Source: Olivibacter sp. SDN3
GTDB lineage: Bacteria; Bacteroidota; Bacteroidia; Sphingobacteriales; Sphingobacteriaceae
Assembly (NCBI RefSeq): GCF_014334135.1
Contig: NZ_CP060497.1
Location: 310,001-374,000, forward strand
Direction: 5' to 3'
DNA: 64,000 nucleotides
Below the pieces are notes generated by a model that saw only the letters and a program-made list of their open reading frames with translations, had not been told where the DNA came from and made no database searches. The position numbers and the translations under genes are program-made. Positions 1,697-20,407 of the stretch are shown here, piece after piece; the stretch's first letter is position 1, and every line of letters begins with the position of its first letter.

Positions 1697-3617
1697 CGTA
1701 TATTTCTAATTTTCCGTATTTACGTAATTCATATTCTTTTGTCATCAGAAATATCAACGGAGTGACTAATAGGATGTGCGTAGAAGATGTTAGAACACCT
1801 CCAATCATAGGAAGTACAATAGGTTGCATGACATCGATCCCTACACCATTTGCCCATAGTACCGGCACTAAACCGAACAAAGCGACACTTACCGTCATCA
1901 ATTTTGGTCTGAGGCGTTTTGCGGCACCATGTATTACATATTCCCTTAAATCTTCTTTGGTTATGGTATCGCTACTGTTTCCTTTCAGTTTGACCAATTG
2001 TTGCATGGCATCGTTAAGATAAATGACCATGACAATACCTGTTTCTACTGCAATTCCGAACAGTGCTATAAATCCTACTGCCACGGCTACGGACAGATTG
2101 ACTCCCCAGAAGTAAATCATATAAGCGCCACCTATCAGCGCGAACGGTATCGTCACAAGGCTTAAAAACGCTTCCCGCAGAGAATGAAAGGCAAAATATA
2201 AGGCGAAAAATATAATCACGAACACGATGGGTGCAATCCATAACAATGTTTGCTGCCCTCTGATCAAATTTTCGTACTGTCCGCTCCATTCCAGGAAATA
2301 ACCGTCCGGCATTAACCCCTTGCTGCCGTTGATCCTGTCAATAGCTTCTTTAACCGTACTTCCCAAATCCCTGTCACGAACATTGAACATGACAGCACCT
2401 CGCAGTAGCGCATTATCGGACGTGATCATAGGAGGACCTGCTTCAAACTTGACGTTGGCAACAGAGCTCAACGGAACTTCACCGAATGACTGGCTCTTAA
2501 GAGGAATTCTTTCGATTTTTGTGATGCTGTTTCTATAATCCTGACTTAGCCTCACGTTTATGCTAAATCTCCGACGGCCTTCGATGGTCTGTCCTATGGG
2601 TGCACCTCCTAAGGCCGATTCAACGGTTTGATTCACATCATCGACGGTTAAACCATAACGGGATAGTGCTGATCGGTCAATATCTATATTTAAGTATTTT
2701 CCACCTGTAATAGGCTCCACGTATAGATCCTGTACACCCGGAATCCCTTCCAGAGCGTTTTTGACACGTTCAGATACCGATGCTATGCTGTCCAATTGCT
2801 GTCCATAAACTTTAATCCCCACATCGGTGCGGATCCCCGTTGCCAACATATTAATCCGATTGATAATGGGTTGTGTCCAGCCATTCACCACCCCCGGAAT
2901 CTGAAGCTTCTTATCCAATTCGTCGATGATATCCTGCTTCGTTATGCCTTCTCTCCATTGACCTTTAGGTTTGAGCATAATAATCGTCTCGATCATACTG
3001 ATAGGCGAGTTATCCGTTGAGGTACTTGCCCTCCCCGCCTTTCCCAGCACCTTTTCTACTTCCGGAACACTTTTAATGATTTTGTCCTGGACCTGTAAAA
3101 TGCGTTTCGCTTCACTGTTGCTTATATCTGGAAGCGTAACCGGCATGAAGAGGATGCTTTGTTCATCCAAAGGAGGCATAAACTCGGTACCTAAGTTTTT
3201 AAGTAATGGAATAGTTATTAAAAGAGCGATTACATTAATGGCTATAGTTGTTTTCCGCCATTTTAATACTTTCCGGATAATCGGCTCATAGATTCTGCTG
3301 AGAAAACGGTTGACAGGGTTTGCGTCATCTGGCTTGAACTTCCCTTTCATAAAAAAGGATATCAACACAGGGGCCAGAGTAATAACCAAAAATGCATCAA
3401 CAATCATGATGAAGGTTTTGGTATAAGCTAATGGATGAAACAGTTTTCCTTCCTGTCCAGTCAACATAAAAACCGGCAAAAATGAGGTTATAATGATAAC
3501 GGTTGCAAAAAAGACGCCCCGGCTTACCTGTTTGCTGCTTTTTTCAATTACCTTTATTCTTTCTTCATCAGAAATCCATTGAGGCGATCTTTTGAATATA
3601 TTTTTAAATTTTTTCAT
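1683..3617 (-). CDS. CusA/CzcA-type RND pump, C-terminal part (split gene)
   Basis: These 644 residues correspond to the C-terminal 60% of a heavy-metal RND transporter. They cover the loop and helix after TM4 ('SFLPVFMLTGQEGKLFHPLAYTKT' region), the second periplasmic porter domain ('NRINMLATGIRTDVGIKVYG'), and the final helix bundle ('FALIGGAYMIYFWGVNLSVA', 'LRPKLMTVSVALFGLVPVLW'). The matching N-terminal part is the adjacent upstream frame, which stops at 3619. The ATG chosen here (3617) lies one base after that stop (TAA-T-ATG), the usual geometry of translational re-initiation. An open frame extends upstream to 3689, but it overlaps the N-terminal gene and has no family similarity. The pump may therefore be made as two chains, or the gene may be frameshifted. 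Confidence 0.85.
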   Translation of the reverse strand: MKKFKNIFKRSPQWISDEERIKVIEKSSKQVSRGVFFATVIIITSFLPVFMLTGQEGKLFHPLAYTKTFIMIVDAFLVITLAPVLISFFMKGKFKPDDANPVNRFLSRIYEPIIRKVLKWRKTTIAINVIALLITIPLLKNLGTEFMPPLDEQSILFMPVTLPDISNSEAKRILQVQDKIIKSVPEVEKVLGKAGRASTSTDNSPISMIETIIMLKPKGQWREGITKQDIIDELDKKLQIPGVVNGWTQPIINRINMLATGIRTDVGIKVYGQQLDSIASVSERVKNALEGIPGVQDLYVEPITGGKYLNIDIDRSALSRYGLTVDDVNQTVESALGGAPIGQTIEGRRRFSINVRLSQDYRNSITKIERIPLKSQSFGEVPLSSVANVKFEAGPPMITSDNALLRGAVMFNVRDRDLGSTVKEAIDRINGSKGLMPDGYFLEWSGQYENLIRGQQTLLWIAPIVFVIIFFALYFAFHSLREAFLSLVTIPFALIGGAYMIYFWGVNLSVAVAVGFIALFGIAVETGIVMVIYLNDAMQQLVKLKGNSSDTITKEDLREYVIHGAAKRLRPKLMTVSVALFGLVPVLWANGVGIDVMQPIVLPMIGGVLTSSTHILLVTPLIFLMTKEYELRKYGKLEIYDANH

Positions 3618-3618
3618 A

Positions 3619-4917
3619 TTATATTTCGCTGGACTTTTTATTGGATGATTCCCACTGCTCGTATCGCTCTGACAGATGTTTATACGCATTTTCGCTCATG
3701 ATAATACCATTATCTACGATGACACCTATAGCGAGCGCGATACCGGTCAATGACATGATATTCGATGAAATTCCAAACGCGTTAAGTAATATAAAACTGA
3801 CGGCCAATGTGATGGGTATCTGGATAATGATACTGAGAGCACTTCTCCAATGGAAAAGGAAGATGATAACCACAATGGAAACAACGATCATCTCCTCTAT
3901 CAAGGTACGTTTTATTGATTCGACCGACTCCTTTATCAATTCTCCACGGTCATACACAATGTCAAACTTGACCCCTTCAGGGAGTCCTTTTGCAACTTCC
4001 TTCATTTTCAGCTTGATGCGATCGATCACTTCAGCGGCATTCTCGCCGTAACGCATAACAACAATTCCACCTACACGCTCGCCCTCCCCATCTTGATCGA
4101 AAATGCCCAACCGTGCCTCACCTGTCATCTGGACGGTGCCTATGTCCGATATTTTGATAGGATTTCCGTTTTGGTTGGCAACCGGTATATTTTCGATTTC
4201 TTCTATAGATTGTAGATAACCGCTTGTTTTAATAATATAACCAATATCACTCATTTCGAATTTTCGCCCTCCGCTTTCGTTATTGTTCGTTCGCACGGCA
4301 TTGATAACATCAGGTATAGATAATTTATAATAGAGAAGTCTGTTTGGATCAACGGTAACTTGGTATTGCTTTTGAAAACCACCGAAAGAAGCTATTTCAC
4401 TTACTCCTTGAACATTTTGCAAAGCAAACTTAATGTACCAGTCCTGCACAGCTCGCTGTTCTCCAAGATCTAGTTTGGGTGCATCTAAGGTATACCATAA
4501 AATATGTCCCACACCCGTTCCATCCGGACCGAGCTGTGGGGTTGCACCTGTCGGCAAGGTACTGGAAACAGTACTTAGCCGTTCCAATACACGTTCACGT
4601 GCCCAGTAGATATCGACATCGTCGTCAAAAATGACATAAATAAAGCTCATACCGAACATTGAGCTTCCTCGAACGTATTTTATGCGGGGTAATCCCTGTA
4701 GGTTTGTAACCAAGGGATAAGTGATCTGGTCCTCGATCAATTGCGGTGCCCTTCCCATCCATTCGGTAAATACGATCACCTGGTTTTCAGACAGATCTGG
4801 AATGGCATCGATGGGATTCTTTTTTACCGATATTACTCCCCAGACAAATATGCCCAGGCTTAACATCAGTACGATAAAACGGTTACGTAACGACCACTCG
4901 ATAACTTTATGTACCAT
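3619..4917 (-). CDS. CusA/CzcA-type RND pump, N-terminal part (split gene)
   Basis: These 432 residues correspond to the N-terminal 40% of a heavy-metal RND transporter, which exports metal using the proton gradient. They hold TM1 ('NRFIVLMLSLGIFVWG'), the first porter domain with 'DAIPDLSENQVIVFTEW' and 'YWARERVLERLSTV', TM2 and TM3, and the TM4 signature 'GVIVDNGIIMSENA', in which the proton-relay Asp and the Glu typical of metal pumps are kept. The protein stops at Ser-Ser-Glu-Ile in the cytoplasmic loop after TM4, where intact CusA (about 1040 residues) continues. The rest is the next gene, one base away. The break falls in a tolerant loop, so a functional two-chain pump is possible. Confidence 0.87.
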   Translation of the reverse strand: MVHKVIEWSLRNRFIVLMLSLGIFVWGVISVKKNPIDAIPDLSENQVIVFTEWMGRAPQLIEDQITYPLVTNLQGLPRIKYVRGSSMFGMSFIYVIFDDDVDIYWARERVLERLSTVSSTLPTGATPQLGPDGTGVGHILWYTLDAPKLDLGEQRAVQDWYIKFALQNVQGVSEIASFGGFQKQYQVTVDPNRLLYYKLSIPDVINAVRTNNNESGGRKFEMSDIGYIIKTSGYLQSIEEIENIPVANQNGNPIKISDIGTVQMTGEARLGIFDQDGEGERVGGIVVMRYGENAAEVIDRIKLKMKEVAKGLPEGVKFDIVYDRGELIKESVESIKRTLIEEMIVVSIVVIIFLFHWRSALSIIIQIPITLAVSFILLNAFGISSNIMSLTGIALAIGVIVDNGIIMSENAYKHLSERYEQWESSNKKSSEI

Positions 4918-4989
4918 ATCGATAAAGTAATTTTGCTGTAAAAACTGATTGATGGTTTAATTTGTAGTAACGGAGCAGCCTGAAAAGTA

Positions 4990-5010
4990 GCCCGTGACTA
5001 CGTCACGGGC
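4990..5010 (-). terminator. Hairpin between DUF3347 gene and cusA-like gene
   Basis: A perfect 9-bp inverted repeat (GCCCGTGAC, TAC loop, GTCACGGGC) lies 10 bases after the DUF3347 stop codon. On the minus strand it is followed by TACTTTTC, a weak U tract. It may terminate or attenuate transcription before the RND pump genes, or protect the upstream mRNA end. Confidence 0.5.
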
Positions 5011-5019
5011 GAAATAAAA

Positions 5020-5646
5020 CTAATTAATAACTTCCTTAACAGACCCGCACTTAAGCATTTTACTTCCGAAATATGGATTTTTTATTTCATTCGCTTCCGA
5101 GAGCCACATAGCGCCTTCATTATCTTTTGCCATAGGGCAATGTGCATTATACAATGTTCGTCCGGCTCCGAAGCCTTTGACCAGCGCATATACGTCCTCG
5201 CTCATCATGATGAAATGTTCTCGTTGATGTTTAATATTGCCCACATTTTCACCAATATGTTCCGCATGCTCTTTCAGATCGGCTTCATTCTGGTTATACA
5301 GTGCTGCTTGTTCGGCAGTTAAGACAGATTTATCTAACTGGTTCATGGCTGCGACCATTGCTTCACCGCCACTTGCGGCTTCTTTATCATCATCATTGGA
5401 TAACGCAGTTTTTACATGGATATAATGATCGACGATCTGTTTTATGGATGAGGCCACTTTTGGATCCACATCCGTAAAGCTGGCCTTGATCTCCGTAATG
5501 TTTGTGTTTCCATCGGCCGTTTGATGTTCTACATTTTCCATGGTCTCCATATTTTGATGATCATCGATTTTCTTTTCTGAATTTGAATTACACGCAGCGA
5601 AAGTGAAGGCTGTGACGGCCATCACACCAAAAATTAGATTTTTCAT
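5020..5646 (-). CDS. DUF3347 domain lipoprotein, copper-cluster associated
   Basis: This 208-residue protein has a lipoprotein signal with the lipobox Ala-Ala-Cys near residue 19, a low-complexity Asp/Glu/Asn linker, and a C-terminal DUF3347 domain. The domain is recognisable by its helical core ('ASSIKQIVDHYIHVKTALS') and its end motifs 'YNAHCPMAKDNEGAMWLS' and 'NPYFGSKMLKCG'. The conserved Cys-Pro-Met-Ala and the later Cys-Gly are candidate metal ligands. In Bacteroidota this family is found beside Cus-type pumps and on membrane-fusion proteins, so a periplasmic copper-binding role is likely but not proven. It lies between the secreted HMA protein (18-bp gap) and the split pump, from which it is separated by a hairpin. 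Confidence 0.82.
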   Translation of the reverse strand: MKNLIFGVMAVTAFTFAACNSNSEKKIDDHQNMETMENVEHQTADGNTNITEIKASFTDVDPKVASSIKQIVDHYIHVKTALSNDDDKEAASGGEAMVAAMNQLDKSVLTAEQAALYNQNEADLKEHAEHIGENVGNIKHQREHFIMMSEDVYALVKGFGAGRTLYNAHCPMAKDNEGAMWLSEANEIKNPYFGSKMLKCGSVKEVIN

Positions 5647-5664
5647 TTCAATTAATTTTATTGT

Positions 5665-6054
5665 TTAATGATTATGTTGTTGTGATTTTTCCTGTTGATG
5701 CCCTTCATGCTCACCCTGAGATGCACCTTTGCGATCGTATTGACAACACCCCGGTAGCTTGTCATAGGCAGCATCCGATGCAGAGAGATCTTGTGTATCG
5801 TGCCCAGCCTTGGCGATTTGCTTCTGCACATCTTTTTCGGATACTTTGTCCGTATTGAATGCCAACGTCATCATTTTTGTTTCGACATTCCAGTTTGCGC
5901 TTTTTACACCTTCAATATTGGCGGCCTTTTCAATGCGCTTTTTGCACATTTCACAATTGCCATAAACTTTAAAAGATGTGTTTTTTTCCTGACCATATAC
6001 AGTGGTCCCAATGATAGCCATAATAGCTACTAGCATTAATCTGATAGATTTCAT
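5665..6054 (-). CDS. Secreted heavy-metal-associated (HMA) domain protein
   Basis: A 129-residue protein with an N-terminal signal peptide ('MKSIRLMLVAIMAIIGTTVYGQ' region) and one HMA domain. The metal site is Gly-Asn-Cys-Glu-Met-Cys, the CxxC motif of MerP/CopZ-like metallochaperones, followed by the typical 'IEGVKSANWNVETKMMTLAF'. A Cys-Cys pair ('LPGCCQYDRKG') and a His/Gln-rich tail ending His-Asn-His add further possible ligands. A periplasmic copper-scavenging or delivery role for the adjacent RND pump is inferred. The start at 6054 is preferred over an in-frame ATG at 6093 because the signal peptide begins there. Confidence 0.85.
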   Translation of the reverse strand: MKSIRLMLVAIMAIIGTTVYGQEKNTSFKVYGNCEMCKKRIEKAANIEGVKSANWNVETKMMTLAFNTDKVSEKDVQKQIAKAGHDTQDLSASDAAYDKLPGCCQYDRKGASQGEHEGHQQEKSQQHNH

Positions 6055-6155
6055 GATAAAAAGAATTAAATGTTTAAAGATTATTGCAGGCATATAGAAA
6101 TGCCATCCTATTCGAATCTCAGATGAGATCGAAAAAAAAAGAAGTGGAAATAGTA

Positions 6156-6557
6156 TTAAATTCGGAAAACTTGGTTTTTGAGGTATAATGGTGTTTTGAT
6201 CGCCGCGGGAGGCGAATTGCTTACCGGATTCTCTTCCGTTACCGATGGAATAATCAGATAGTCCGAAATATCATTTGGAATTTTCGGTAATAGGAAACTA
6301 ATTTTTTGGAATTCTAAAAAGGTATTCTCCGAACTTTTATGAACTTTATCCAGTTTTACCTGTTTATGCTCATCCTTGCAACAGTCATTTTTCTTCTTCG
6401 ATTTCTTAGTCATACCGCACACTTCACAGGCATCGTCTTGGCCGTGCCATAAGGAGGTGTCTACCAGTTTTTCCATGCAGTAATGCAGATGCATGGTAAA
6501 TCCGGTAGATGTACCGAGATAGAAAAAGGTCAATATGATAAGTAATATCTTCTTCAC
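6156..6557 (-). CDS. HYC_CC_PP family protein
   Basis: A 133-residue secreted or membrane-anchored protein with the three motifs that name this Bacteroidota family: His-Tyr-Cys after the signal segment ('MHLHYCMEKLVD'), a Cys-Cys pair in a Lys/Asp-rich stretch ('KKNDCCKDEHKQVKLDK'), and Pro-Pro near the C-terminus ('SNSPPAAIKTPLYLKNQ'). An extra 'DACEVCGM' gives a CxxC. No biochemical function is established. It is the first gene of the copper cluster on this strand, and the Cys/His content suggests metal binding, which is inference. Confidence 0.82.
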   Translation of the reverse strand: MKKILLIILTFFYLGTSTGFTMHLHYCMEKLVDTSLWHGQDDACEVCGMTKKSKKKNDCCKDEHKQVKLDKVHKSSENTFLEFQKISFLLPKIPNDISDYLIIPSVTEENPVSNSPPAAIKTPLYLKNQVFRI

Positions 6558-7211: not shown

Positions 7212-7376
7212 ATGGCAAAACGGCTTATAGAAAAACGACATATCACTCCCGAACAGGCTACGAAAATTTTGAATAAAAGAGGCATAGAAGTAAACGAAAA
7301 GCAAGCAAAAATAATTTTGGATTTCTTGTATATTTTAGCTAAATTAACAGTTAATCAATACTTTAGGAAAGATTAG
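7212..7376 (+). CDS. Small orphan protein upstream of serine recombinase
   Basis: A 54-residue basic, helical protein starting 'MAKRLIEKRHITPEQATKIL' and ending 'VNQYFRKD'. It contains 'KRGIEVNEKQAKIILDFLY', which reads like a short helix-turn-helix or helical hairpin. I recall similar small proteins directly before recombinase genes in Bacteroidota mobile DNA, but no function is known to me. The open frame extends upstream only through a TTG at 7137; the ATG at 7212 is the better start. It lies 27 bp before the recombinase and probably shares its transcript. It could be a recombination directionality factor or a regulator, which is speculation. Confidence 0.62.
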   Translation: MAKRLIEKRHITPEQATKILNKRGIEVNEKQAKIILDFLYILAKLTVNQYFRKD

Positions 7377-7403: not shown

Positions 7404-8966
7404 ATGATACCAACATACCTTTATATCCGAGTAAGTACAGATGAACAGGCAAGACGGGGTTATTCTTTAAGAGAGCAGGAGGACAGACTCCTACAATATT
7501 GTACTTTGAACGGTATAGAAGTTTTAGGTATTGTCCGTGAAGATCATTCAGCCAAGACATTTAACCGCCCAGAATGGAAAAAGTTGATGATAAAGCTAAA
7601 GAAAAAACGTAAGATGGCCGTTCAGATACTTTGCGTCAAATGGGATAGATTCAGCCGTAGTATAGAAGCCGCCTATGAAATGATCGGCGTGTTGAGATCA
7701 TTAAATGTCACTGTTAACTCGATTGAACAACCTGTGGATATGTCTATTCCAGAGAACAAAATGATGCTTGCCATTTATTTGGCAGTTCCGGAAGTTGAGA
7801 ATGACAGGAGGGCACTAAATGTTTTTTACGGAATGAGAAAGGCAAGACGGGAAGGGCGGTGGATGGGAACGGCGACTATAGGTTATATAAACAGAGTTAC
7901 CCCCGATGGGAAGAAATATATCATGCCGAAACAACCGGAAGCAGAAATTATGAAGTGGGTTTTTGAAGAGTTGGCCAAAGGTGTTTATGCCGCTGAGCAG
8001 ATACGTAAAATGGCCAACGAAAAAGGGCTAAAATGTGAAAGAAATAACTTCTGGAAGATTATCCGTAATCCTGTATATTGCGGAATAATCATTGTCCCTC
8101 CTCACAAGAATGAAGAGATGGAATTTGTAAAAGGCCAACATCAGCCGATTATTTCTGAAGTTCTTTTCTACAAGGTACAGGATATATTGAATGGGAACAA
8201 AAGACCTATCGCAACGAAAGTGGTTTCTAAAGACATGTTACCGTTAAGAGGATTTCTTCAATGTCCCAATTGTAGCAGAATGTTAACCGGAAGTGCGTCA
8301 AAAGGACGTCATCGGCACTATTACTATTATCACTGTTCGTCCTCGGCTTGTGGCTGTAGATTTAAGGCAGAGGAAGTGAACGGTTATTTTGAAAGGGAAC
8401 TGTTAAAGTTTAAACTCATGCCTGAAACGGGCGAGCTTTTCAAAATGGTCGTCTTGGACGAATATCGTTCATCTAATCGCGAGGAACTAGATGAACGGGC
8501 CGCGTTGTTTAAAAAAATTGAAGAGCAGGAGGCCATTTTGTCTAATGCTAGGAAAAAATTAATGAAGGATGAAATAGATGGTAATGATTTTAAGATTATT
8601 AAAATGGAGTGTAATGAAGAACTGAAAAAACAGGAAGCACTATTGGCCGATCTCCCAATCAAGTCCCAGAATATAAAAACGATAGAAACCTTATTGGACA
8701 AAGTAGTAGAAACGTATTCAAATATCGATAAACACTATATGGGGGCAGATATTGAAGGGAAGCGTAGAATCATTGGTTCGATGTACCCGGAAAATCTGTG
8801 TTTTGACGGTACAAGACATCGAACCGCTCGACTTAATGAAGCATTATCGCTTATCTTGCTAATTAACAGCGAGTTAGAATCAATAAAAAAGGGGAAAGAT
8901 TCGTTTAATTTGAATCTTTCCCCTGAGGTAGCCCGTAGGGGGATTAAAAATATTGCTTTATCGTGA
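7404..8966 (+). CDS. Large serine recombinase, tail fused across an att site
   Basis: This 520-residue site-specific recombinase has an N-terminal resolvase/invertase domain (about 1-150) with the catalytic Ser11 in 'YIRVSTDEQARRG' and 'KWDRFSRS', and a recombinase domain (about 165-280, 'GYINRVTPDGKKYIMPKQP'). It continues with a zinc ribbon (about 285-325, 'CPNCSRML' and 'CSSSACGCRF') and a coiled coil (about 365-430), the usual order for large serine integrases. The last residues, 'SPEVARRGIKNIALS', are encoded by a hairpin, then by the 15-bp tRNA-Glu-derived repeat at 8927-8941 and then by sequence of the neighbouring element. The native C-terminus therefore ended earlier or differently. 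It is the likely integrase of the DNA to its left; that assignment is inference. Confidence 0.87.
   Translation: MIPTYLYIRVSTDEQARRGYSLREQEDRLLQYCTLNGIEVLGIVREDHSAKTFNRPEWKKLMIKLKKKRKMAVQILCVKWDRFSRSIEAAYEMIGVLRSLNVTVNSIEQPVDMSIPENKMMLAIYLAVPEVENDRRALNVFYGMRKARREGRWMGTATIGYINRVTPDGKKYIMPKQPEAEIMKWVFEELAKGVYAAEQIRKMANEKGLKCERNNFWKIIRNPVYCGIIIVPPHKNEEMEFVKGQHQPIISEVLFYKVQDILNGNKRPIATKVVSKDMLPLRGFLQCPNCSRMLTGSASKGRHRHYYYYHCSSSACGCRFKAEEVNGYFERELLKFKLMPETGELFKMVVLDEYRSSNREELDERAALFKKIEEQEAILSNARKKLMKDEIDGNDFKIIKMECNEELKKQEALLADLPIKSQNIKTIETLLDKVVETYSNIDKHYMGADIEGKRRIIGSMYPENLCFDGTRHRTARLNEALSLILLINSELESIKKGKDSFNLNLSPEVARRGIKNIALS
8891..8923. terminator. 12-bp perfect hairpin inside recombinase 3' end
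   Basis: GGGGAAAGATTC and GAATCTTTCCCC form a perfect 12-bp inverted repeat around a 9-nt loop, preceded by A6. It looks like a rho-independent terminator (better on the minus strand, where TTTTTTATTG follows) yet lies within the open recombinase frame, four bases before the att repeat. It may originally have been the terminator of the tRNA-Glu gene or of the recombinase. Confidence 0.55.
8927..8941. repeat. Distal attachment repeat of the tRNA-Glu element
   Basis: GGTAGCCCGTAGGGG is identical to the tRNA-Glu 3'-end sequence at 23039-23053 and lies in the same orientation. The flanks differ (TGA before and GATTAAAA after, against TCTC and AATCGAAC), so the identity is limited to a crossover-sized core. 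This is the expected distal att copy left by integration into a tRNA 3' end. Confidence 0.75.
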
Positions 8967-8990
8967 CAAAAACAGTGATTTTTAATTTTC

Positions 8991-9015
8991 GGGGGTTCTT
9001 TTTGTGGTTCTTTTT
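8991..9015. repeat. Left-end candidate integrase arm sites
   Basis: Two tandem copies, GGGGGTTCTTTTT (8991-9003) and TGGTTCTTTTT (9005-9015), lie 50 bp inside the left att repeat. The same doublet occurs at 22911-22935 inside the other end, in the same orientation. Tandem repeats flanking the core sites are typical arm-type binding sites for the N-terminal domain of tyrosine integrases. Confidence 0.6.
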
Positions 9016-9033
9016 AGGCAATCAAAGAGAATC

Positions 9034-9306
9034 CTAAAATAAGTCGCTGTGTGTGCCTGTTCTTGTTAATGTAATGAGCCTTATGGCGTCGTCCTGTTCC
9101 CAAACCAACAGCCAATCGGGCTGGATATGGCATTCCCAAAACCCTTTGTAATTACCCGTCAACTTGTGCGGTTTGTTTTTTGGCGGAAGCGTACCGCTTT
9201 CAACCAATTGGGTAACGACTTCATCGAGTAGTCGCATACCCAAACCACGCTTTTTGGCGAGTTTAATATCTTTTTTGAACTTTCCTGTCTGTTCAAGCTG
9301 ATACAT
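9034..9306 (-). CDS. YafQ-type mRNA interferase toxin
   Basis: A 90-residue type II toxin of the RelE/ParE superfamily, YafQ branch, which cleaves mRNA in the ribosome. The residues matching the YafQ active site are present: His47, His60, Asp64-Trp65 in 'CHIQPDWLLVW', His86 in 'RTGTHSDLF' and the terminal Phe90. Length and motif spacing match E. coli YafQ, so the protein looks active. Its ATG shares one base with the antitoxin stop codon (TAATG), which couples translation of the pair. It sits at the left end of the element, where it could stabilise the element in the host. Confidence 0.9.
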   Translation of the reverse strand: MYQLEQTGKFKKDIKLAKKRGLGMRLLDEVVTQLVESGTLPPKNKPHKLTGNYKGFWECHIQPDWLLVWEQDDAIRLITLTRTGTHSDLF

Positions 9307-9500
9307 TACGAGTAAAGTTCTTTTCTAAAATCTTCAAGAGTGGTTTTTGTCGCCTTGCCCGATTTAGCTTCCTTTATCGCCTTTTCAGTATCTTTATTAT
9401 AACGAGGTTCTTCAAGCTCTACAAAAGGAAGTGTTTTAAGGTATTCATAGAATACTTTTGCCTGCTTGCTTCGCTTATCTATTTTTATCGTTATTTCCAT
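9306..9500 (-). CDS. Antitoxin partner of YafQ-type toxin
   Basis: A 64-residue acidic/basic helical protein directly upstream of the toxin gene. It opens with a short beta stretch ('MEITIKIDKRSKQAKVFY') and has a charged C-terminal half ('TEKAIKEAKSGKATKTTLED') suited to wrapping the toxin. This arrangement is common for Bacteroidota antitoxins paired with RelE/YafQ toxins. It does not look like classical DinJ (RHH), so the DNA-binding mode is unclear. An in-frame GTG at 9506 would add two residues; the ATG at 9500 is preferred. Autoregulation by the complex is expected from the family but no operator was identified. Confidence 0.8.
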   Translation of the reverse strand: MEITIKIDKRSKQAKVFYEYLKTLPFVELEEPRYNKDTEKAIKEAKSGKATKTTLEDFRKELYS

Positions 9501-9610
9501 ATCCACATATTTTAATGATACTACCCCAAAGTTACGAAAAAATAAAATTCTTCGCTATTGGCTGGCGAAAGAAAGAAAACGCCCAATATGATGAAAGCTT
9601 TTCACCGTAA

Positions 9611-9970
9611 ATGCCCAAAGCGAGAACAGCCGCGGCCAAGAGCGATGGGGTTTCGCAGGCCACAAATGCGCGGTGGGAACAAGGTATATTTGTCGGTTCT
9701 TTTTCGGATAACTTCGATGAACGTATCGAGCAAAAGATATTTCACTCAGAAATCGTGGTAGATAATGAAAAGGTAGCAGCTCAAACCAAAGCCTATCAGC
9801 AGATACCGCAAATTCTATCTTTTGTAAATGAGCAGGGCGAGGATAAGATGAAACAGGAAATTGAGGGTAACTACAAACAGATAAAATCAGATATCCTGAA
9901 CATTGTTATAAGTGAAATGGAACGCATCAAGAATGACCCGAACTTGCAGCATTTGGTGCAGCAGAAATGA
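9611..9970 (+). pseudogene. Probable C-terminal remnant of MobC/TraG-type coupling protein
   Basis: A 119-residue frame whose residues 25-119 ('FVGSFSDNFDERIEQKIFHS', 'EIVVDNEKV', 'MERIKNDPNLQHLVQQK') resemble, from memory, the C-terminal end of the VirD4-like coupling protein MobC of Bacteroidota conjugative elements. The first 24 residues (Ala/Lys-rich) do not fit, and a stop codon directly precedes the ATG, so the ATPase domain is missing. It is best read as the leftover of a deleted transfer gene, which would explain why the element has a relaxase but no coupling protein. Alternatively it is an unrelated small helical protein; a profile search would decide. Confidence 0.5.
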
Positions 9971-10017
9971 TATATCGTGGCATGGTTGTTTGCACTTTAC
10001 CATTGGAAAGGTTAACG

Positions 10018-10377
10018 CTATTTTCCAATAATCTTTTCCCTATGACTCGTACCCCATTCGCCAAGTGCCGTTATAACGTTATGTAGTGAAAAGCCGTGTT
10101 CGGTCAAGGAATATTCTACGGTTGGGGGAAAAGTATCAAAGACTGTTCTAGCTATAAGTTGATTTACCTCCAAGGCCTTCAATTCTTTTGAGAGCACTTT
10201 GTCAGTAATACCCTGAACATCCCTCGATATTTCCTTAAATCGCTTATTTCCAAATTTTAGCGATATAATGATGGGTATTTTCCATCTCCCGTTTAAAACT
10301 TCTAAAGCGTCTTTAACAGGTAGAATTGCCTTCACGCACTCCTGTTTTTTCTCTTGATTTATTTTATCTGTGATCAT
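10018..10377 (-). CDS. HxlR-family transcriptional regulator
   Basis: A 119-residue winged-helix protein with the HxlR signature 'LNGRWKIPIIISLKFGNKRF', 'GITDKVLSKELKALE' (recognition region) and 'VEYSLTEHGFSL' (wing). Members often sense quinones, aldehydes or other electrophiles and repress a divergent redox gene. Here it is transcribed away from the DoxX-like/azoreductase operon, and a 44-bp palindrome lies 10 bp upstream of its start codon, between the two genes. It carries one Cys (in 'KKQECVKAI') near the N-terminus, where redox-sensing HxlR proteins such as HypR/QorR have theirs. Regulation of the operon and of itself is inferred from layout. Confidence 0.9.
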   Translation of the reverse strand: MITDKINQEKKQECVKAILPVKDALEVLNGRWKIPIIISLKFGNKRFKEISRDVQGITDKVLSKELKALEVNQLIARTVFDTFPPTVEYSLTEHGFSLHNVITALGEWGTSHREKIIGK

Positions 10378-10386
10378 AATGTGATG

Positions 10387-10430
10387 TATTACTATCCCAT
10401 TGGATAGTGCTATCCAATGGGATAGTAATA
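10387..10430. promoter_or_regulatory. Double palindromic operator between hxlR and doxX-like gene
   Basis: A perfect inverted repeat with 20-bp arms (left arm TATTACTATCCCATTGGATA) and a GTGC spacer. Each arm itself contains a smaller dyad, TATCC-4-GGATA, so there are two adjacent 14-bp sites as well as one large palindrome. The position, 10 bp before the hxlR start and 22 bp upstream of a TAnnTTTG element for the divergent operon, fits an HxlR-family operator controlling both directions. Confidence 0.75.
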
Positions 10431-10452
10431 TCTTTTAGATAGCAAATGTAGG

Positions 10453-10460
10453 TAACTTTG
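10453..10460 (+). promoter_or_regulatory. Bacteroidota -7 element TAACTTTG before DoxX-like gene
   Basis: TAACTTTG matches the TAnnTTTG -7 consensus and lies 28 bp before the ATG at 10489. No clear -33 TTTG is seen at the ideal spacing; the region where it would fall adjoins the palindromic operator, so repressor binding there could block the promoter. Confidence 0.5.
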
Positions 10461-10488
10461 CATAGTTAAACAAATAATAATTAAAAAT

Positions 10489-10848
10489 ATGAGAAAAGAC
10501 AAAATCATTTATTGGGTGTCCACTTCACTAACAATCCTGACCGGTGCATCCTCTGCCTTTCTTTACTTTACAGATGCTATGGGAGAAGCGTTCAGGCATT
10601 TAGGCTTTCCCGACTATTTTAAAGTTGAGCTGGCTATCGGCAAAATTATAGGCATTCCACTTTTACTTATCCCTGCTGTTCCCAGAATAATAAAAGAATG
10701 GGCTTATGCCGCTTATGGTATTGTTTTTATGTCGGCAATCATTGCACATACCGTTGTTGACGGCGTTGGAGCGGCGATAACACCATTATTACCACTTATT
10801 TTCTTAATCGTATCCTACCGATACTATCATAAATTAAATAGAGCATAA
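10489..10848 (+). CDS. DoxX-like family membrane protein
   Basis: A 119-residue protein with four predicted transmembrane segments ('YWVSTSLTILTGASSAFLYF', 'AIGKIIGIPLLLIPAVP', 'AAYGIVFMSAIIAHTVV', 'AAITPLLPLIFLIVSY') and the DoxX-like pattern 'FRHLGFPDYFKVELAIGKI'. DoxX-like proteins commonly accompany HxlR/TetR-regulated redox genes, but their reaction is not known. It is the first gene of the plus-strand cargo operon, 83 bp before the azoreductase. The control region upstream holds the HxlR-type operator. Confidence 0.86.
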   Translation: MRKDKIIYWVSTSLTILTGASSAFLYFTDAMGEAFRHLGFPDYFKVELAIGKIIGIPLLLIPAVPRIIKEWAYAAYGIVFMSAIIAHTVVDGVGAAITPLLPLIFLIVSYRYYHKLNRA

Positions 10849-10931
10849 AATATTAGAGCGTTGCACTTATTAGTTGCTAGCGCTTACTAAAGGTAGTCCC
10901 ACAGAAATCATTATAACTAAAAATAAAGAAA

Positions 10932-11540
10932 ATGAAAAAAATATTGCACATCATTTCAAGCATCCACGGAGAAATATCTTCCAGCAGTCAGTTATCAGAC
11001 ACAATCGTTGAGAACTTAAAAAATGCTTATCCTGACAGCCAGGTTAATAAACTCGACCTGTCGGAGTCACATTTCCCTTATCTTGAAGCCAAACATTTTG
11101 AGGCATTTTTTACACCTGCCGAACATCACACTGCAATCCAGCGAGAAGTGTTTGGCCGTTCCGGGCAAGCTATAACTGAATTGAAAGAAGCTGATTTTAT
11201 CGTAATTGGTTTACCCATATACAATTTAGGTATTCCGGCCAGTTTAAAGGGATGGATCGATTACGTGGCGCGAGTTGGCGAGACATTCAGCTACGTAGAT
11301 AATGCACCTATAGGTCTCTTAACCGATAAAAAAGTATATCTGGCCATCGCCTCAGGGGGTATATATAGCGAAGAGCCAATGAAGAGCTATGATTTTACAG
11401 AACCCTATCTAAGGGCAATGCTGGGATTTATCGGCTTGACAGACCTCACAGCCTTCAGGGTGGAGGGAACAGCTATCCCCGGAGTTAAAGAAACTGCCTT
11501 ATCTAAAGCACAGGAAACAGTCAGTGAGTTTACTTTCTAA
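10932..11540 (+). CDS. FMN-dependent NADH-azoreductase (AzoR family)
   Basis: A 202-residue flavodoxin-fold NAD(P)H oxidoreductase. Seen: the FMN phosphate-binding stretch 'SSIHGEISSSSQLSDTIV', the family motif 'GLPIYNLGIPASLKGWIDYV' and 'RVGETFSYVDNAPIGLL', and a third loop 'IASGGIYSEEP'. AzoR enzymes are cytosolic homodimers that reduce quinones and azo compounds by two electrons, avoiding semiquinone radicals. Length is standard. Between HxlR/DoxX and TetR genes it fits a quinone/electrophile detoxification operon; the natural substrate is unknown. Confidence 0.88.
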   Translation: MKKILHIISSIHGEISSSSQLSDTIVENLKNAYPDSQVNKLDLSESHFPYLEAKHFEAFFTPAEHHTAIQREVFGRSGQAITELKEADFIVIGLPIYNLGIPASLKGWIDYVARVGETFSYVDNAPIGLLTDKKVYLAIASGGIYSEEPMKSYDFTEPYLRAMLGFIGLTDLTAFRVEGTAIPGVKETALSKAQETVSEFTF

Positions 11541-11567
11541 GTATTTTGTAATTCAGCATAGATAATA

Positions 11568-12203
11568 ATGGGCAGCAAAGAAAGGATAGCCAAATTAAAG
11601 AGCGAGTTGCGTAAAGACATACTTTGCGCAGCCCTTGCTATTTTAAAAAATGATGGACGCCAATCCCTAAGCCTGCGAAAAATAGCTGACCGCATAGAGT
11701 ACTCTCCACCAGTAATATATTCTTACTTTAAAAATAAAGAAGCCATTCTAATTGCTCTATGCGAATTATGCTATCAGCAATTTAATGGATGTATCGAGAA
11801 AAATTGTAGAAAGCTGACCAACCCGGAAGAAAGGTTGACAGCAATAGTGACCACATGTTGGAACTTTGCGATTGAAGAGAAAGAAATGTATGATTTAATG
11901 TGGGAGGTTGGCAGCACTTGCACCGATCCTTTTACACAATTCAAAGAGTTGGGACTATTTCTGAATTTTTTAAGTGAAACGCTGAAAAATCTGTGCGGCA
12001 AGAAAGTATGTACAGAAGAATACCTTTTTCATAAAAGCCAGACTGCCATAGCAGTAATGCATGGGCATATTTGCTTGAATTATACGTTGTCAAATGCTGA
12101 TCCGAAATTAAGGAGTAGAATGCTGAACGAGACTATACTTTACGTAATGAATCTTATAAACGACTATAATCTGACATCGCGTGAACTCAATAATCATTAT
12201 TGA
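11568..12203 (+). CDS. TetR/AcrR-family transcriptional regulator
   Basis: A 211-residue regulator with an N-terminal TetR helix-turn-helix (about 14-60; 'SLRKIADRIEYSPPVIYSYF' and 'KNKEAILIAL') and an all-helical ligand-binding C-terminal domain containing several Cys residues. It lies inside the plus-strand operon, 27 bp after the azoreductase and 22 bp before the oxidoreductase. It may therefore control the downstream half of the operon or be co-transcribed for autoregulation. No separate operator was recognised. The ligand is unknown. Confidence 0.9.
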   Translation: MGSKERIAKLKSELRKDILCAALAILKNDGRQSLSLRKIADRIEYSPPVIYSYFKNKEAILIALCELCYQQFNGCIEKNCRKLTNPEERLTAIVTTCWNFAIEEKEMYDLMWEVGSTCTDPFTQFKELGLFLNFLSETLKNLCGKKVCTEEYLFHKSQTAIAVMHGHICLNYTLSNADPKLRSRMLNETILYVMNLINDYNLTSRELNNHY

Positions 12204-12225
12204 GAGTGTGAAATAATAAAAGAGA

Positions 12226-13305
12226 ATGAATAAATCGAAAATTCGTATCGGATTTATTGGATTAAATCCAGACAAACAATGGGCTTCAATAGCTCATATA
12301 CCCGCACTGGGAACGTTGGTTGAAGAATTTGAAATTGTAGGGGTTGCAAACTCTACTTACCAGAGTGCCAAAAAATCAGCAGAAGCATTCCAGATTCCTT
12401 TAGCCTTTGAAAATGCCCAGGCGCTGATACTATCAGATGAAATCGACCTCGTGGTCATCACCGTCAAGGTGCCTCATCACTATGAATTGGTTAAGGCTGC
12501 ATTGGGAGCAGGCAAGCACGTCTATTGTGAACATCCATTGGGCAATGGCCTGGAAGAAACAAAAGCATTGGCTGCATTGGCCGCCCAAAAAAATGTAGTC
12601 GCCGTGGTCGGCACTCAACTAGTTGCTGCTCCAGAGTTGCTTTATCTACAGCAACTCATTAATGAGGGATATGTGGGGAGGGTTTTATCTTCTACCTTGA
12701 ACGGTTCTGTTAATAACTGGGGGGATAACGTAATTTCTCATAATTACTATATTAATGATAAGTCATTTGGAGCGACATTATTTACAGTTCCATTCGCGCA
12801 CACCTTAGCAGGTGTCATAAAAGTATTGGGAGGTTTTGGGAAATTTAAGGCAGAAATGTACAATAATTTCACCTCTGTAAAAGTAACCGATACAGACGAA
12901 ATTAAATCTAAAACAACTGAAGACCAGATACTGGTTATTGGTGCATTTAAAAGCGGAGCTGCTTTTTCTGCTCATTATCGCGGCGGTATCAACGCAACCA
13001 GCCTAGTATGGGAAATTAATGGAACCGAAGGAGATATACAAGTTACCAGTTCTTCAGGACACGCACAGTTGCTAGGACTCAAAATACTTGGAAAGAAAAG
13101 CGACGAAAAAGAATTGAAAAACTTGATTCCACCTGCTGAAATGTACCAGGGTCTACCAGATGATCCTTTGGTTAGAAACGTTGCCGCTATTTACCGGCTT
13201 GCAGCTGGTGATATCCGAAACGATACCCGTAACGCCCCTACATTTGAGGATGCAGCAAAATTGCACCAAGTTCTATCTTCAATTGAGAAATCCGCGTCAA
13301 TTTAA
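12226..13305 (+). CDS. Gfo/Idh/MocA-family oxidoreductase, Gal80-like
   Basis: A 359-residue protein with an N-terminal Rossmann domain ('RIGFIGLNPDKQWASIAHIP', then 'VVITVKVPHHYELVKAALGA') and a C-terminal GFO/IDH domain ('VGTQLVAAPELLYLQQLINE', 'GYVGRVLSSTL'). The usual catalytic Glu-Lys-Pro motif is Glu-His-Pro here ('YCEHPLGNGLEETKALA'), the kind of change seen in Gal80-like members that bind NAD(P) but may not catalyse. Either an enzyme of altered chemistry or a dinucleotide-sensing protein is possible. It is translated in the middle of the redox operon, just after the TetR gene. Confidence 0.85.
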   Translation: MNKSKIRIGFIGLNPDKQWASIAHIPALGTLVEEFEIVGVANSTYQSAKKSAEAFQIPLAFENAQALILSDEIDLVVITVKVPHHYELVKAALGAGKHVYCEHPLGNGLEETKALAALAAQKNVVAVVGTQLVAAPELLYLQQLINEGYVGRVLSSTLNGSVNNWGDNVISHNYYINDKSFGATLFTVPFAHTLAGVIKVLGGFGKFKAEMYNNFTSVKVTDTDEIKSKTTEDQILVIGAFKSGAAFSAHYRGGINATSLVWEINGTEGDIQVTSSSGHAQLLGLKILGKKSDEKELKNLIPPAEMYQGLPDDPLVRNVAAIYRLAAGDIRNDTRNAPTFEDAAKLHQVLSSIEKSASI

Positions 13306-13360
13306 GTAAGTATAACAAAACGAAACTCCGAATGGATATTTCGAAGATAAATAAATCATT

Positions 13361-14356
13361 ATGGCATATCAATTTAAAGGATTATATATTACCGAAGAAC
13401 AAGGTGAATTTAAAGCGAACTTAACGGAACTTTCTACCGCAGATCTTCCAAATAATGAAGTGCTTATTAAAGTAGCTTTCTCGTCTGTTAATTATAAAGA
13501 CGTATTGTCTGCATCGGGAAACAAAGGGGTTACCCAAAAGTTCCCGCATGTACCTGGTATAGATGCGGCAGGCGAGGTGGTTTCTTCCCGTAGCAATAAA
13601 TTTAAAACAGGTGATAAGGTAATTGTCACAGGATACGATCTTGGAATGAATACCTGGGGCGGATTTGGAGAGTACATCAGTGTCCCATCTGGCTGGGTGT
13701 TATCCCTTCCAGAACCATTGTCGCTTTTGGACGCAATGGCTTTAGGCACCGCGGGTCTTACGGCAGGACTATCAATATATGAACTTATCAACTCGGGCGT
13801 TACACCGGAGAAAGGTAAAATAGCGGTGAGTGGAGCAACGGGTGGTGTCGGAAGTATATCTGTAGCTATATTGTCTAAACTAGGATATGAGGTAGTAGCA
13901 ATTTCAGGAAAAAAACAGAATGATTTCCTCACAAGAACATTAGGAGCCAATGCGGTTTTTACCAGGCAAGATTTTATAGATAAGTACGATAAAGACATCA
14001 TGTCAAAGATGGAACTTGCTGGGGGAATTGATGCTGTCGGAGGAAGGATTCTTTCGGGAATGCTTAAGGCCACAAATTATAATGGCACAGTGACCTGTTG
14101 CGGTTTGGTAGCTTCGCCAAATATTGAAACAACTATATATCCATTCATTATCAGGAATGTAACACTTGTTGGAATTGATTCGGTTGAACAACCATTAAAT
14201 CATAAAGAAGCTATATGGAAATTACTAGCAAATGAATGGAAACCCACTGTGCTTAGTCATATCACTAAATTAATTAATCTCGAAGAACTGCCAGCCGCCT
14301 TATACGATGTAAGTCAAGGAAACGCAATAGGGAGATATGTTGTGAGCCATGGATAA
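13361..14356 (+). CDS. YhdH/AcuI-type quinone oxidoreductase / acrylyl-CoA reductase family
   Basis: A 331-residue zinc-independent medium-chain reductase of the YhdH/AcuI subfamily. Seen: the GroES-like N-terminus ('NYKDVLSASGNKGVTQKFPH', 'VPGIDAAGEVV'), the subfamily landmark 'GMNTWGGFGEYISVP', and the NADPH-binding 'SGATGGVGSISVAIL' followed by 'LGYEVVAISGK'. Family enzymes reduce the C=C bond of acrylyl-CoA or related electrophilic enones with NADPH. In this operon a role in removing reactive alpha,beta-unsaturated carbonyls is likely. Length is typical of the family. Confidence 0.88.
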   Translation: MAYQFKGLYITEEQGEFKANLTELSTADLPNNEVLIKVAFSSVNYKDVLSASGNKGVTQKFPHVPGIDAAGEVVSSRSNKFKTGDKVIVTGYDLGMNTWGGFGEYISVPSGWVLSLPEPLSLLDAMALGTAGLTAGLSIYELINSGVTPEKGKIAVSGATGGVGSISVAILSKLGYEVVAISGKKQNDFLTRTLGANAVFTRQDFIDKYDKDIMSKMELAGGIDAVGGRILSGMLKATNYNGTVTCCGLVASPNIETTIYPFIIRNVTLVGIDSVEQPLNHKEAIWKLLANEWKPTVLSHITKLINLEELPAALYDVSQGNAIGRYVVSHG

Positions 14357-14447
14357 CTAATTTATTTTCTGAGTAAAATAAAAATAGTTGTTGTAATAGG
14401 AATTATTAGTTTAAAAAATACAATGTTAAATTTTAAAAGCAAATAGT

Positions 14448-15353
14448 ATGGACATAAAAAATGTCACAGTCTTTGGTGCAGGCGTATTGGGTGCGCAAAT
14501 AGCGTTTCAAACAGCCTTTCATGGCTATAAGGTCACTTTATATGATATCAAAAAAGAATTCCTTGAAAATGCTCGTAAAAGGTTTGAGAATCTACGTGAA
14601 TCCTATAAGGTTGATATTGATGCCACGGATGAGGATTTGGATATAGCTTTCAATAATTTAAGTTATACTACAAATCTTGCGGAATCGGTTACAGATGCTG
14701 ATATTACCATAGAAGCCATACCTGAAAACCTAGAAGTTAAGAAAGAATTCTATGTCAAATTGAGTACTTTGGCACCCCAAAAAACTATTTTTTGCACGAA
14801 TTCCTCCACATTACTCCCAAGTGATTTTGCTGCTGAAACAGGCAGGCCACAGCAATTTTTAGCACTACACTTTGCCAACCTTGTTTGGAAGTACAACATT
14901 GTGGAAATCATGGGCCATGCCGGCACGGATGCCAAAAACATCGAAATCATTCTTGCATTTGCAAAAACAATTGGGATGGTGCCGGTTGTCATTCAAAAAG
15001 AAAATCCCGGCTACATCATGAATGCACTATCAGTTCCGTGGCTAATGACTGCATTAGATTTGTTGATAGAAGGGGTCGGAGATGTAGAGAGTATTGATAA
15101 GACATGGATACTGACACCAATTGGAAACAGGTCTATCGGACCTTTCGCCCTTTTGGACATCATCGGACTGACGACTGCATATAATGTTATTACCAATAAT
15201 GCAGAGAAGACCGGTGAAAATACTTGGATCAAAAGAAAAGAATTTATTAGAAAAAATTTTATAGAGCCCAATAAACTCGGAGTGTCCACAGGAGAAGGTT
15301 TTTACAAGTATCCAAACCCGAGCTACGAACAGGAAGCTTTTCTAAAACCCTAG
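14448..15353 (+). CDS. 3-hydroxyacyl-CoA dehydrogenase (NAD-binding, HBDH-like)
   Basis: A 301-residue protein with an N-terminal NAD-binding domain ('VTVFGAGVLGAQIAFQTAFH', GxGxxG) and the C-terminal helical domain of 3-hydroxybutyryl-CoA dehydrogenases. The catalytic His-Glu pair is visible as 'ALHFANLVWKYNIVEIMGH'; the usual Pro after His-Phe-x-Asn is Leu here, and the substrate motif reads 'NPGYIMNALSVPWL'. It would interconvert 3-hydroxyacyl-CoA and 3-oxoacyl-CoA. Next to an acrylyl-CoA-reductase-like gene it could act on small acyl-CoA intermediates, but the altered motif leaves the substrate open. Confidence 0.85.
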   Translation: MDIKNVTVFGAGVLGAQIAFQTAFHGYKVTLYDIKKEFLENARKRFENLRESYKVDIDATDEDLDIAFNNLSYTTNLAESVTDADITIEAIPENLEVKKEFYVKLSTLAPQKTIFCTNSSTLLPSDFAAETGRPQQFLALHFANLVWKYNIVEIMGHAGTDAKNIEIILAFAKTIGMVPVVIQKENPGYIMNALSVPWLMTALDLLIEGVGDVESIDKTWILTPIGNRSIGPFALLDIIGLTTAYNVITNNAEKTGENTWIKRKEFIRKNFIEPNKLGVSTGEGFYKYPNPSYEQEAFLKP

Positions 15354-15400
15354 AATAATTATTAAAAAATATTCCAACTAACATAATACAAAATTCAAAT

Positions 15401-16033
15401 ATGTCTTTAATTGAAAATCTTAATTGGCGATACGCCACAAAAGCTTATGATCCTACGAAAAAGGTAAGCGAAAAAAATTTATATAAGATTCTGGAAGCTG
15501 CCCGATTGGCACCCACATCGTCTGGCTTACAGCAATATAGGGTATTGGTCATTTCTAATCAGGAATTGAAAGAAAGATTAAAAGAAGGTTCGTTTAATCC
15601 TGAATCCATGAGAGATTGTTCCTATGTTCTTGTATTTGCAGCCTGGGACAACTATACAGATGAACGTATAGATAAGATATACAATCATACGACACGGCAA
15701 AGAGGCTTGCCGGACGGACAATTTAAAAGTTATACCGATAAGATAAAAGCCATTTTCGCTTCTCAAACCATCGAGGAAAATTTTGACAATGCTGCCCGTC
15801 AGTGCTATATCGGCCTGGCAATGGCATTAGCTCAAGCTGCAGAGCTAAAGATAGACAGTACGCCTGCTGAAGGGTTTGACAATGCTCAGGTAGATAAAAC
15901 GTTGGAATTGAAAGTGAAAGGTTTAAAAAGTGTGGTTTTAATGTATGTGGGCTATCGTGCAGAACATGATTGGCTGGCTCCAATGAGAAAAGTTCGAAAC
16001 CCGATGGATGAGTTTGTAACTTTTATTGGATAA
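15401..16033 (+). CDS. NAD(P)H-dependent nitroreductase (NfsB-like)
   Basis: A 210-residue FMN nitroreductase. Seen: the N-terminal 'NWRYATKAYDPTKKVSEKNL', 'AARLAPTSSGLQQYRVLVIS' (FMN-binding Arg/Ser region), and the C-terminal 'RKVRNPMDEFVTFIG'. Such homodimeric enzymes reduce nitro compounds, quinones or enones using NAD(P)H. It is the last gene of the cargo operon; a strong hairpin terminator follows at 16071-16095. The family is clear; the substrate is not. Confidence 0.88.
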   Translation: MSLIENLNWRYATKAYDPTKKVSEKNLYKILEAARLAPTSSGLQQYRVLVISNQELKERLKEGSFNPESMRDCSYVLVFAAWDNYTDERIDKIYNHTTRQRGLPDGQFKSYTDKIKAIFASQTIEENFDNAARQCYIGLAMALAQAAELKIDSTPAEGFDNAQVDKTLELKVKGLKSVVLMYVGYRAEHDWLAPMRKVRNPMDEFVTFIG

Positions 16034-16070
16034 GGCAATTGAATAATCCTTCAACTTGATGATCCGCATT

Positions 16071-16095
16071 AAGCCTAAATGTACCGTTTAGGCTT
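16071..16095 (+). terminator. Terminator of the redox cargo operon
   Basis: AAGCCTAAA and TTTAGGCTT form a perfect 9-bp stem around a 7-nt loop, followed by TTCTATT. It lies 37 bp after the nitroreductase stop and before the RteC gene, so the operon probably ends here. Confidence 0.75.
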
Positions 16096-16136
16096 TTCTA
16101 TTAATAAATCAAACATCAATATTGCAAACTAAGGGG

Positions 16137-16991: not shown

Positions 16992-17016
16992 TCCGGATGA
17001 CACAGTTCGCGTTACA

Positions 17017-17583: not shown

Positions 17584-17595
17584 GTTTTTTATGAT

Positions 17596-19517: not shown

Positions 19518-19639
19518 ATCAAACGTGTTTGTATGGTGCAATGTTCGGGGGGATTCAAAGGGGGATTGGTCACTATTTCATTTTTGTTCGATAGGATGCC
19601 CTGCGGTACTGTTTAATATATATATCGGGCATGTATCGG

Positions 19640-20336: not shown

Positions 20337-20407
20337 GTTCTCTTTACAGACATTGTTAATGTAAATATACGGAATTTCGGACAGAAATAAAACAGGGCAA
20401 AGAGTGT

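Follow-up and report, generated by a model that had tools for sequence, protein, structure and literature searches.

The window, a 64-kb stretch of DNA (C1:310,001-374,000 of a 6.12-Mb single-contig genome), holds a recombinase gene at 7404..8966 (+) whose 3' end runs through a short repeat of a nearby tRNA-Glu gene. This raises the questions of which element the recombinase belongs to, whether the DNA to its left arrived with it, and how a protein can come to end in an attachment site. Our analysis points, with a probability of about 0.78, to the integrase of a putative ICE (integrative and conjugative element) of ~95.8 kb inserted at tRNA-Glu, with an attP that would lie across the end of the integrase gene, a protein tail that would be swapped upon integration and a tyrosine-integrase insertion that would have followed at the same place.

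The recombinase and the origin of its tail

The product of 520 aa, referred to here as the large serine recombinase (LSR), matched the Pfam domains Resolvase (E 3.5e-24) and Recombinase (E 8.9e-15), followed by a zinc ribbon (E 2.7e-5, with 24.9 bits slightly below the cutoff of 25.3); this domain order is the layout of large serine recombinases. Residues R8, S10, D80, R81, C286, C289 and C314 were invariant among 47 aligned members, which had been picked from the 73 with a writable reading frame. Immediately upstream lies a gene for a small protein of 54 aa (7212..7376, +). Similar sequence was present upstream of the LSR in 24 of the 30 loci searched, in one of them only at E 0.036, and the protein may be a partner or directionality factor of the recombinase.

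The tRNA-Glu(TTC) gene, target of both the older and the younger element described below, occupies 23039..23112 (-). A 15-bp repeat, GGTAGCCCGTAGGGG, was found at 8927..8941 (+) and at 23039..23053 (+), the latter being the 3' end of the tRNA gene; no other copies occurred in the 64-kb window with up to 2 mismatches, for a chance expectation of 0.02. These repeats flank a younger mobilizable element (8927-23053 with the repeats, 8942..23038 between them), which sits between the LSR and tRNA-Glu and carries a tyrosine integrase (21483..22841, -), a relaxase (17596..18567, -), a MobC/NikA-like protein, RteC and an oxidoreductase cargo. The RteC-family protein (16122-16991, +) was identified with an E of 1.9e-82; Bacteroides conjugative elements are controlled by relatives of the RteC-type regulator.

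The final codons of the LSR read S-P-E on the hairpin side, V-A-R-R-G within the 15-bp repeat and I-K-N-I-A-L-S in the younger element, which supplies the last seven codons. This assignment agrees with the initial annotation, where the tail had been ascribed to a hairpin, the tRNA-Glu repeat and the neighbouring element. The same annotation held that the uninterrupted frame would enter tRNA-Glu antisense, and this was borne out: continued over the tRNA copy of the repeat, the frame becomes VARRGIEPLFPE*, and the LSR of Olivibacter jilunii (L021/L039), 92% identical, ends in ...SPEVARRGIEPLFQE* within an intact tRNA-Glu gene. The uninterrupted arrangement of LSR and tRNA thus exists in nature, in a genome of the kind that had been proposed for comparison.

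The description of the tail as encoded by an attachment site stood in part. The tail does span the 15-bp repeat, but this serves as att site to the younger element; it was discarded as the LSR's own site because it belongs to the tyrosine-integrase element and LSR cores are of about 4 nt. The right end of the LSR element shares only ~4 nt (GTAG) with its left end. This GTAG core, the former attR, is found at 8928..8931 (+), and its dyad axis probably falls between nucleotides 3 and 4. Next to it, a terminator of the tRNA strand lies in the LSR frame at 8885..8923 (-; arms 8891-8902 and 8912-8923, T-run 8885-8890) and makes up the right (P) arm of the element.

An older, putatively conjugative element and stacked insertions at tRNA-Glu

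The left end of the LSR element was located outside the window at C1:223,124, where GTAG is followed 21 nt on by TCGAACC and then by the frame ISNRFLDDLRRIAS*. The element thereby spans C1:223,124-318,931 (~95.8 kb). TraM, TraK, TraJ and MobC (all above cutoff), a MobB-like relaxase (below cutoff) and the metal efflux cluster lie between its ends. The cluster (446..6557, -) comprises an outer membrane efflux protein, an RND pump in two ORFs and a DUF3347 protein; 'copper' is the label given to it by the earlier reader and is retained here. Leftward from the LSR, the order is the copper cluster, MobC with the MobB-like relaxase, then TraJ, TraK and TraM. With the left end ~95.8 kb off and beyond the window, the copper cluster counts as cargo that a putative conjugative element carried to tRNA-Glu in an earlier insertion.

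In O. jilunii, a copper cluster 90% identical to that of the window adjoins the LSR of 92% identity at a different tRNA-Glu locus, which indicates that the cluster moves with the LSR. Its DNA is collinear with the older element in long blocks of 88-93% identity and two short ones of ~81%. The suggestion that the copper cluster had come in with an earlier insertion is thus upheld by the left end at 223,124, the conjugation genes between the ends and the joint occurrence of cluster and LSR in the relative. A break in similarity at 290,810 had been considered as the left end and was rejected, since the collinearity with O. jilunii goes on to 232,640.

These observations bear on the reading of the LSR as a resident gene or a degraded stray that abuts tRNA-Glu by chance, with the copper cluster being part of the core genome. 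It draws on the LSR of the window being separated from the tRNA by an inserted element, and on its predicted left end lying far outside the window. However, the same arrangement occurs at an intact tRNA-Glu in the relative and at 12 anticodon types elsewhere, the copper cluster accompanies the LSR to the other O. jilunii tRNA-Glu locus, and conjugation genes fill the space between the ends, so that this reading is already refuted.

Some features of the older element deserve separate mention. Two ORFs that differ in frame, of 432 and 668 aa, encode the RND pump (1683-4917, -); the first has its stop one base ahead of an ATG, and ORFs of these two lengths are also found in the O. jilunii copy. 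IS-like ORFs break up the region between 223,124 and 318,931. Two 276-aa ORFs with the same start are found inside the element (C1:240,444-241,274 and 279,811-280,641) and appear to be transposase-like; since one of them is located beside TraJ, the transfer genes of the older element may be interrupted.

The initial annotation had envisaged a third copy of GGTAGCCCGTAGGGG left of the window. A whole-genome search allowing up to 1 mismatch returned none near the left, its other two copies being those of a second tRNA-Glu locus at 85-102 kb. Degenerate copies of the 15-bp repeat were present at ~222,953 and ~223,124. Between about C1:222,953 and 223,120 (L012), the two ends of a tyrosine-type element are joined without a middle, which we regard as a scar that a previous insertion left at this tRNA. 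Genome position 220,397 holds an older left end of the LSR kind. From these ends and the scar left of 223,124, at least four insertions appear to be stacked between 220.4 and 333.05 kb: the two elements originally described as stacked at this tRNA are in fact more than two.

The second tRNA-Glu locus (C1:85,829-101,612; L005, L006) is stacked as well. There, an element of a third kind, which has a junction of 24 bp and whose integrase-like ORF (86150-87391) encodes 413 aa, is followed by a tyrosine-type element end resembling the younger element of the window. Sites in G015, G037 and G000 (85.8 kb) had at first been taken for empty tRNA-Glu sites; however, ~1.4 kb beside the tRNA is common to all three, and since this stretch holds the third integrase-like ORF in G000, the sites are considered occupied by another element. 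Junctions of 24 nt had pointed to a crossover in the T-loop, near GAACC; this was likewise set aside, as four of these junctions share sequence with one another and that of G000 lies against the third element. Several left ends or tRNA-end repeats also follow one another in tandem on one strand elsewhere (G238:C75 at 1746, 4803 and 10261; G164:C70 at 56790-105071), and repeated insertion at a single tRNA may be common in the LSR family.

A family of elements at tRNA 3' ends

LSR homologues were found in 275 of 399 family genomes searched. Plasmid and phage collections yielded distant homologues only, the best match being below 60% identity for every record. Seventy-seven LSR loci were examined: 30 in a first set that included the window's, 7 with paired left ends, and the next 40 in listed order. 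Six loci stand outside this count, namely G052:C9, which was studied apart, G114:C21, G015:C57, G000:5,835,914, G380 and G205. The LSRs of the last two read into tRNA-Met, and G000:5,835,914 has no recognised tRNA.

In 59 of the 77 loci, the LSR reads antisense into the 3' end of a tRNA gene on the opposite strand, covering 12 anticodon types and nine amino acids (Met 16, Glu 13, His 13, Lys 6, Arg 3, Pro 2, Asp 2, Asn 2, Leu 2). One further locus is at a contig end and 17 were classified as 'other'. Among the latter are two interrupted Olivibacter loci, the window's own and a relative (L037, L038), each followed by another element; three LSRs that enter the left end of another element; several whose tails are tRNA-like although no tRNA was recognised; and a few (L057, L223, L251) that merely end early and match neither form. 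In named Chryseobacterium and Epilithonimonas genomes the LSR reads into tRNA-Arg(TCG) at 8 of 10 loci, the other two having shortened matches with tRNA-Arg further off. This comparison of C-termini among homologues, which the initial annotation had called for, indicates that a tRNA-derived LSR tail is, as far as sequences tell, a trait of the family and not a peculiarity of the window's locus.

A terminator of the tRNA strand, consisting of a hairpin and a T-run, was found within 14 nt of the tRNA end at 57 of the 59 loci (exceptions L243 and L249; median hairpin energy -19.1 kcal/mol) and in 0/59 shuffles. The hairpin of this terminator doubles as LSR coding sequence (…KKGKDSFNLNLSP…). Beyond it, the tails of the integrated form differ according to the tRNA, from ~2 to more than 80 residues, and nothing is conserved in them beyond the tRNA itself.

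Left ends were sought by means of tRNA repeats and then with a motif pattern built on nine tRNA-Glu left ends. A 13-mer from the end of tRNA-Glu, exact matches of which were present in 16 genomes, led to these nine, which all read GTAGCCCGTAGGGGAA, five bases and TCGAA. Among the remaining copies were tRNAs, junctions of the tyrosine or third type, and one ill-fitting LSR-like copy (G164:C70:56790), which lacks TCGAA at that place and was left out of the nine. The pattern matched in 147 of the 399 genomes, with 13 matches for a reversed-pattern control. For G007, G029, G205 and G380, no left end was found by tRNA repeat within 80 kb; motif or protein later provided those of G029, G380 and G205, not that of G007.

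Paired ends share a core of ~4 nt at tRNA-Lys, tRNA-Pro and tRNA-Asp and of up to 6 nt at tRNA-Met, after which the sequence is element-specific; at tRNA-Glu and in G081, the left end itself is tRNA-like over a longer stretch. Counted from the G of the core, TCGAA starts at 16 nt in 12/12 tRNAs tested and at 21 nt in 10/12 paired left ends, the exceptions being G026 (23 nt) and G170C2, which did not fit and is probably mispaired. The spacing of 21 nt was also observed in 9/9 tRNA-Glu left ends and in L194, L216 and L221, where the left end is contiguous with an LSR. This shift from 16 to 21 nt matches the attB/attP rule published for a serine integrase, whose zinc-ribbon motif is, according to Rutherford et al. 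2013 (PMC3783163), displaced inward by 5 bp in attB as compared with attP. Compared as inverted repeats about core nucleotides 3/4, the P and P' arms of 15 elements had an identity of 0.62, against 0.40 in the next best register and at most 0.387 in 500 shuffles, and we infer that core bases 3-4 are the central dinucleotide and that the T-loop sequence of the tRNA serves as zinc-ribbon motif. TCGAA was not seen at the matching places of the P arm, so the 5-bp shift concerns one half-site, the P'/B' side. A rule combining a universal T-loop, a fixed distance and a 5-bp shift is likely, and the shift suggests how so many tRNAs can be targets.

A conserved alternative tail and its possible roles

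Past these motifs, the left ends hold an open frame that is the integrase frame, with a tail mostly of the form V-x6-S-N-x-F-L-x-D-L-x-R-L. The initial annotation correctly described the tail at this locus as derived from tRNA and att sequences, but it missed this conserved replacement at the other end. Among eight distinct tRNA-Glu left ends found by the tRNA repeat alone, pN/pS was 0.28 in this frame, compared with 1.30 and 0.65 in the other two, and only 2 of 2000 column shuffles gave values as low; for ten left ends, two of them known through motif or position, it was 0.30 (0/2000 shuffles). The TTN codon of the tail encodes leucine in 46 of 49 distinct left ends with its third base split between A (24) and G (22), which argues for conservation of the leucine and not of a base. 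These 49 had been collected with the motif, whose pattern partly imposed Phe and Asp on them, though not on the eight. An in-frame stop was present at codon 13-17 in 36/49.

A second tail type, of ~35 aa, belongs to elements at tRNA-Met. Sought in 13 genomes with the L221-type tail, it was present in 6, one of them the source, and gave no match in the other 7; in G080, G087 and G205 it sits upstream of the LSR, sharing contig and strand with it. Of nine Met-type left ends, six have GTAG 21 nt ahead of TCGA or TCAA, one has it 22 nt ahead and two have neither spacing. In L194, L216 and L221, the chromosomal LSR ORF enters the left end of a neighbouring element directly and thereby displays the full-length form of the protein. 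As the left end continues the integrase frame and is contiguous with it in these three loci, attP would lie within the integrase gene. When the contiguous long form was modelled, the tail was possibly a helix, at low confidence (pLDDT under 50).

An open frame in an attachment site can also be explained as a by-product of DNA conservation, the left end being a DNA-binding site or a promoter. TCGAACC and a GGACAA-like stretch are indeed DNA motifs of the element ends and, in part, of the tRNA. Beyond the motif, however, third codon positions vary in 9/12 columns as against 4/12 and 5/12 for the other positions, and changes keep Leu, Asp and Phe (Phe and Asp being those partly imposed by the pattern in the 49), which makes this explanation improbable.

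A stronger, if still doubtful, contender is a tail swap without function: the integrase proper would end before the hairpin, the frame would be open only since attP is located there, and any sequence that comes next would be tolerated. The unconserved integrated tails, the poor order of the tail in the model and the early ends of L057, L223 and L251 are what such a swap would leave. Against it, the left-end tail is conserved as protein (the pN/pS of 0.28), exceeds an attachment half-site of ~25 bp, with ~35 aa in the Met type, and is mostly closed by a stop within codons 13-17.

Our preferred reading, that of an integrase whose attP spans its own gene end, would unfold as follows. The family would consist of Bacteroidota elements that use the 3' ends of a wide range of tRNA genes as insertion sites. 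The predicted attP straddles the end of the integrase gene, its right (P) arm providing the last codons and, for the tRNA used as target, a putative terminator. At the far end of the element, the left (P') arm would begin with a tRNA-like sequence whose TCGAA is 5 bp more distant from the core than that of the tRNA, and would then encode the conserved tail in the integrase frame. The zinc ribbon would read the T-loop sequence, near-identical in all tRNAs, and crossover at the 3'-terminal nucleotides would leave the tRNA whole. From the predicted circle, integrase would be made with the conserved tail; because the far ends encode this alternative C-terminus in frame, integration should swap the LSR tail, cutting the conserved one off and putting an arbitrary tRNA-antisense tail in its place. 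At the present locus, a tyrosine-integrase element would later have entered the same tRNA end, parting the LSR from the tRNA and changing its tail once more. The anatomy of the attachment site is well supported by sequence comparison; that the tail acts as a switch is a proposal amenable to testing.

A tail that is conserved in the putative circle and arbitrary once integrated would make a case for a function at the circle stage. Tentatively, the conserved tail might be an integration licence: integrase made from the circle would insert, and the integrated gene would yield a tail-less enzyme with an arbitrary end. As only tail-less LSR would then be made, the att site itself would set the direction of the reaction or shut the enzyme down, and a separate repressor would not be needed. 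With tail and half of attP in a single stretch of DNA and a universal T-loop, tRNA targets could be changed via a few core bases.

Relation to known systems

The integrases associated with tRNA genes as targets are usually of the tyrosine type. Use of such targets by serine recombinases is called rare in the relevant excerpt of PMC3218068, which mentions phiRSM1 at tRNA-Ser and Mycobacterium AICEs at tRNA-Leu, whereas the sequences examined here suggest a large serine family at 12 anticodon types. The two reported cases use one tRNA each, and the same excerpt describes neither a tail swap nor a T-loop spacing rule (PMC3218068). Site-specific IMEs of the serine type are said to disrupt dispensable genes (PMC5704250). 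Software described in a 2026 paper has linked integrases, among them those of the serine type, with their att sites across hundreds of thousands of genomes (PMC12884075), and sites of the LSR family may already stand unremarked in such tables. Among titles and abstract openings of the open-access literature, subscription papers being outside the scope, no account of this arrangement was found. The T-loop rule predicts target sites and could help to predict new integrase/site pairs, and tRNA-targeting serine integrases with a putative attP over the gene end are a broader subject than the original observation of stacking.

As regards transfer functions, the older element is comparable to the Bacteroidota conjugative elements of the CTnDOT type. 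It shares TraJ, TraK, TraM, MobC and a MobB-like relaxase (below cutoff) with that type but is integrated by a serine and not a tyrosine recombinase. Among large serine integrases, the A118 type of Listeria (PDB 4kis) has the same domain order, and residues 168-416 of the LSR match 4kis. Both use a short core, and the LSR fits the 5-bp zinc-ribbon rule for attB and attP as excerpted from PMC3783163. Unlike the A118 type, the LSR targets tRNA 3' ends with the T-loop as presumed zinc-ribbon motif, the 3' end of its gene falls within the predicted attP, and the P arm is also the tRNA terminator.

Exchange of a C-terminus through integration has a parallel in the integration-dependent immunity of mycobacteriophages, where attP is within a gene and the circle and integrated proteins differ in their C-termini, as outlined in PMC8092301. 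There, it is the repressor gene that contains attP, and integration relies on a tyrosine-type enzyme; here, the gene would be that of the LSR itself. A closer analogy is offered by the archaeal integrases of the SSV type. SSV1 has its attP within the integrase gene, and its target is a tRNA gene. In the 'suicidal' integrases of this type, integration alters the integrase's own gene, and recombinases that disrupt their own gene are called exclusive to archaea in the section concerned (PMC8371274). SSV-type enzymes are tyrosine recombinases whose gene is split in two pieces, while the LSR is a bacterial serine recombinase of which only the tail would be exchanged; on this published account, the LSR family may represent a bacterial, serine-type counterpart of archaeal self-disruption.
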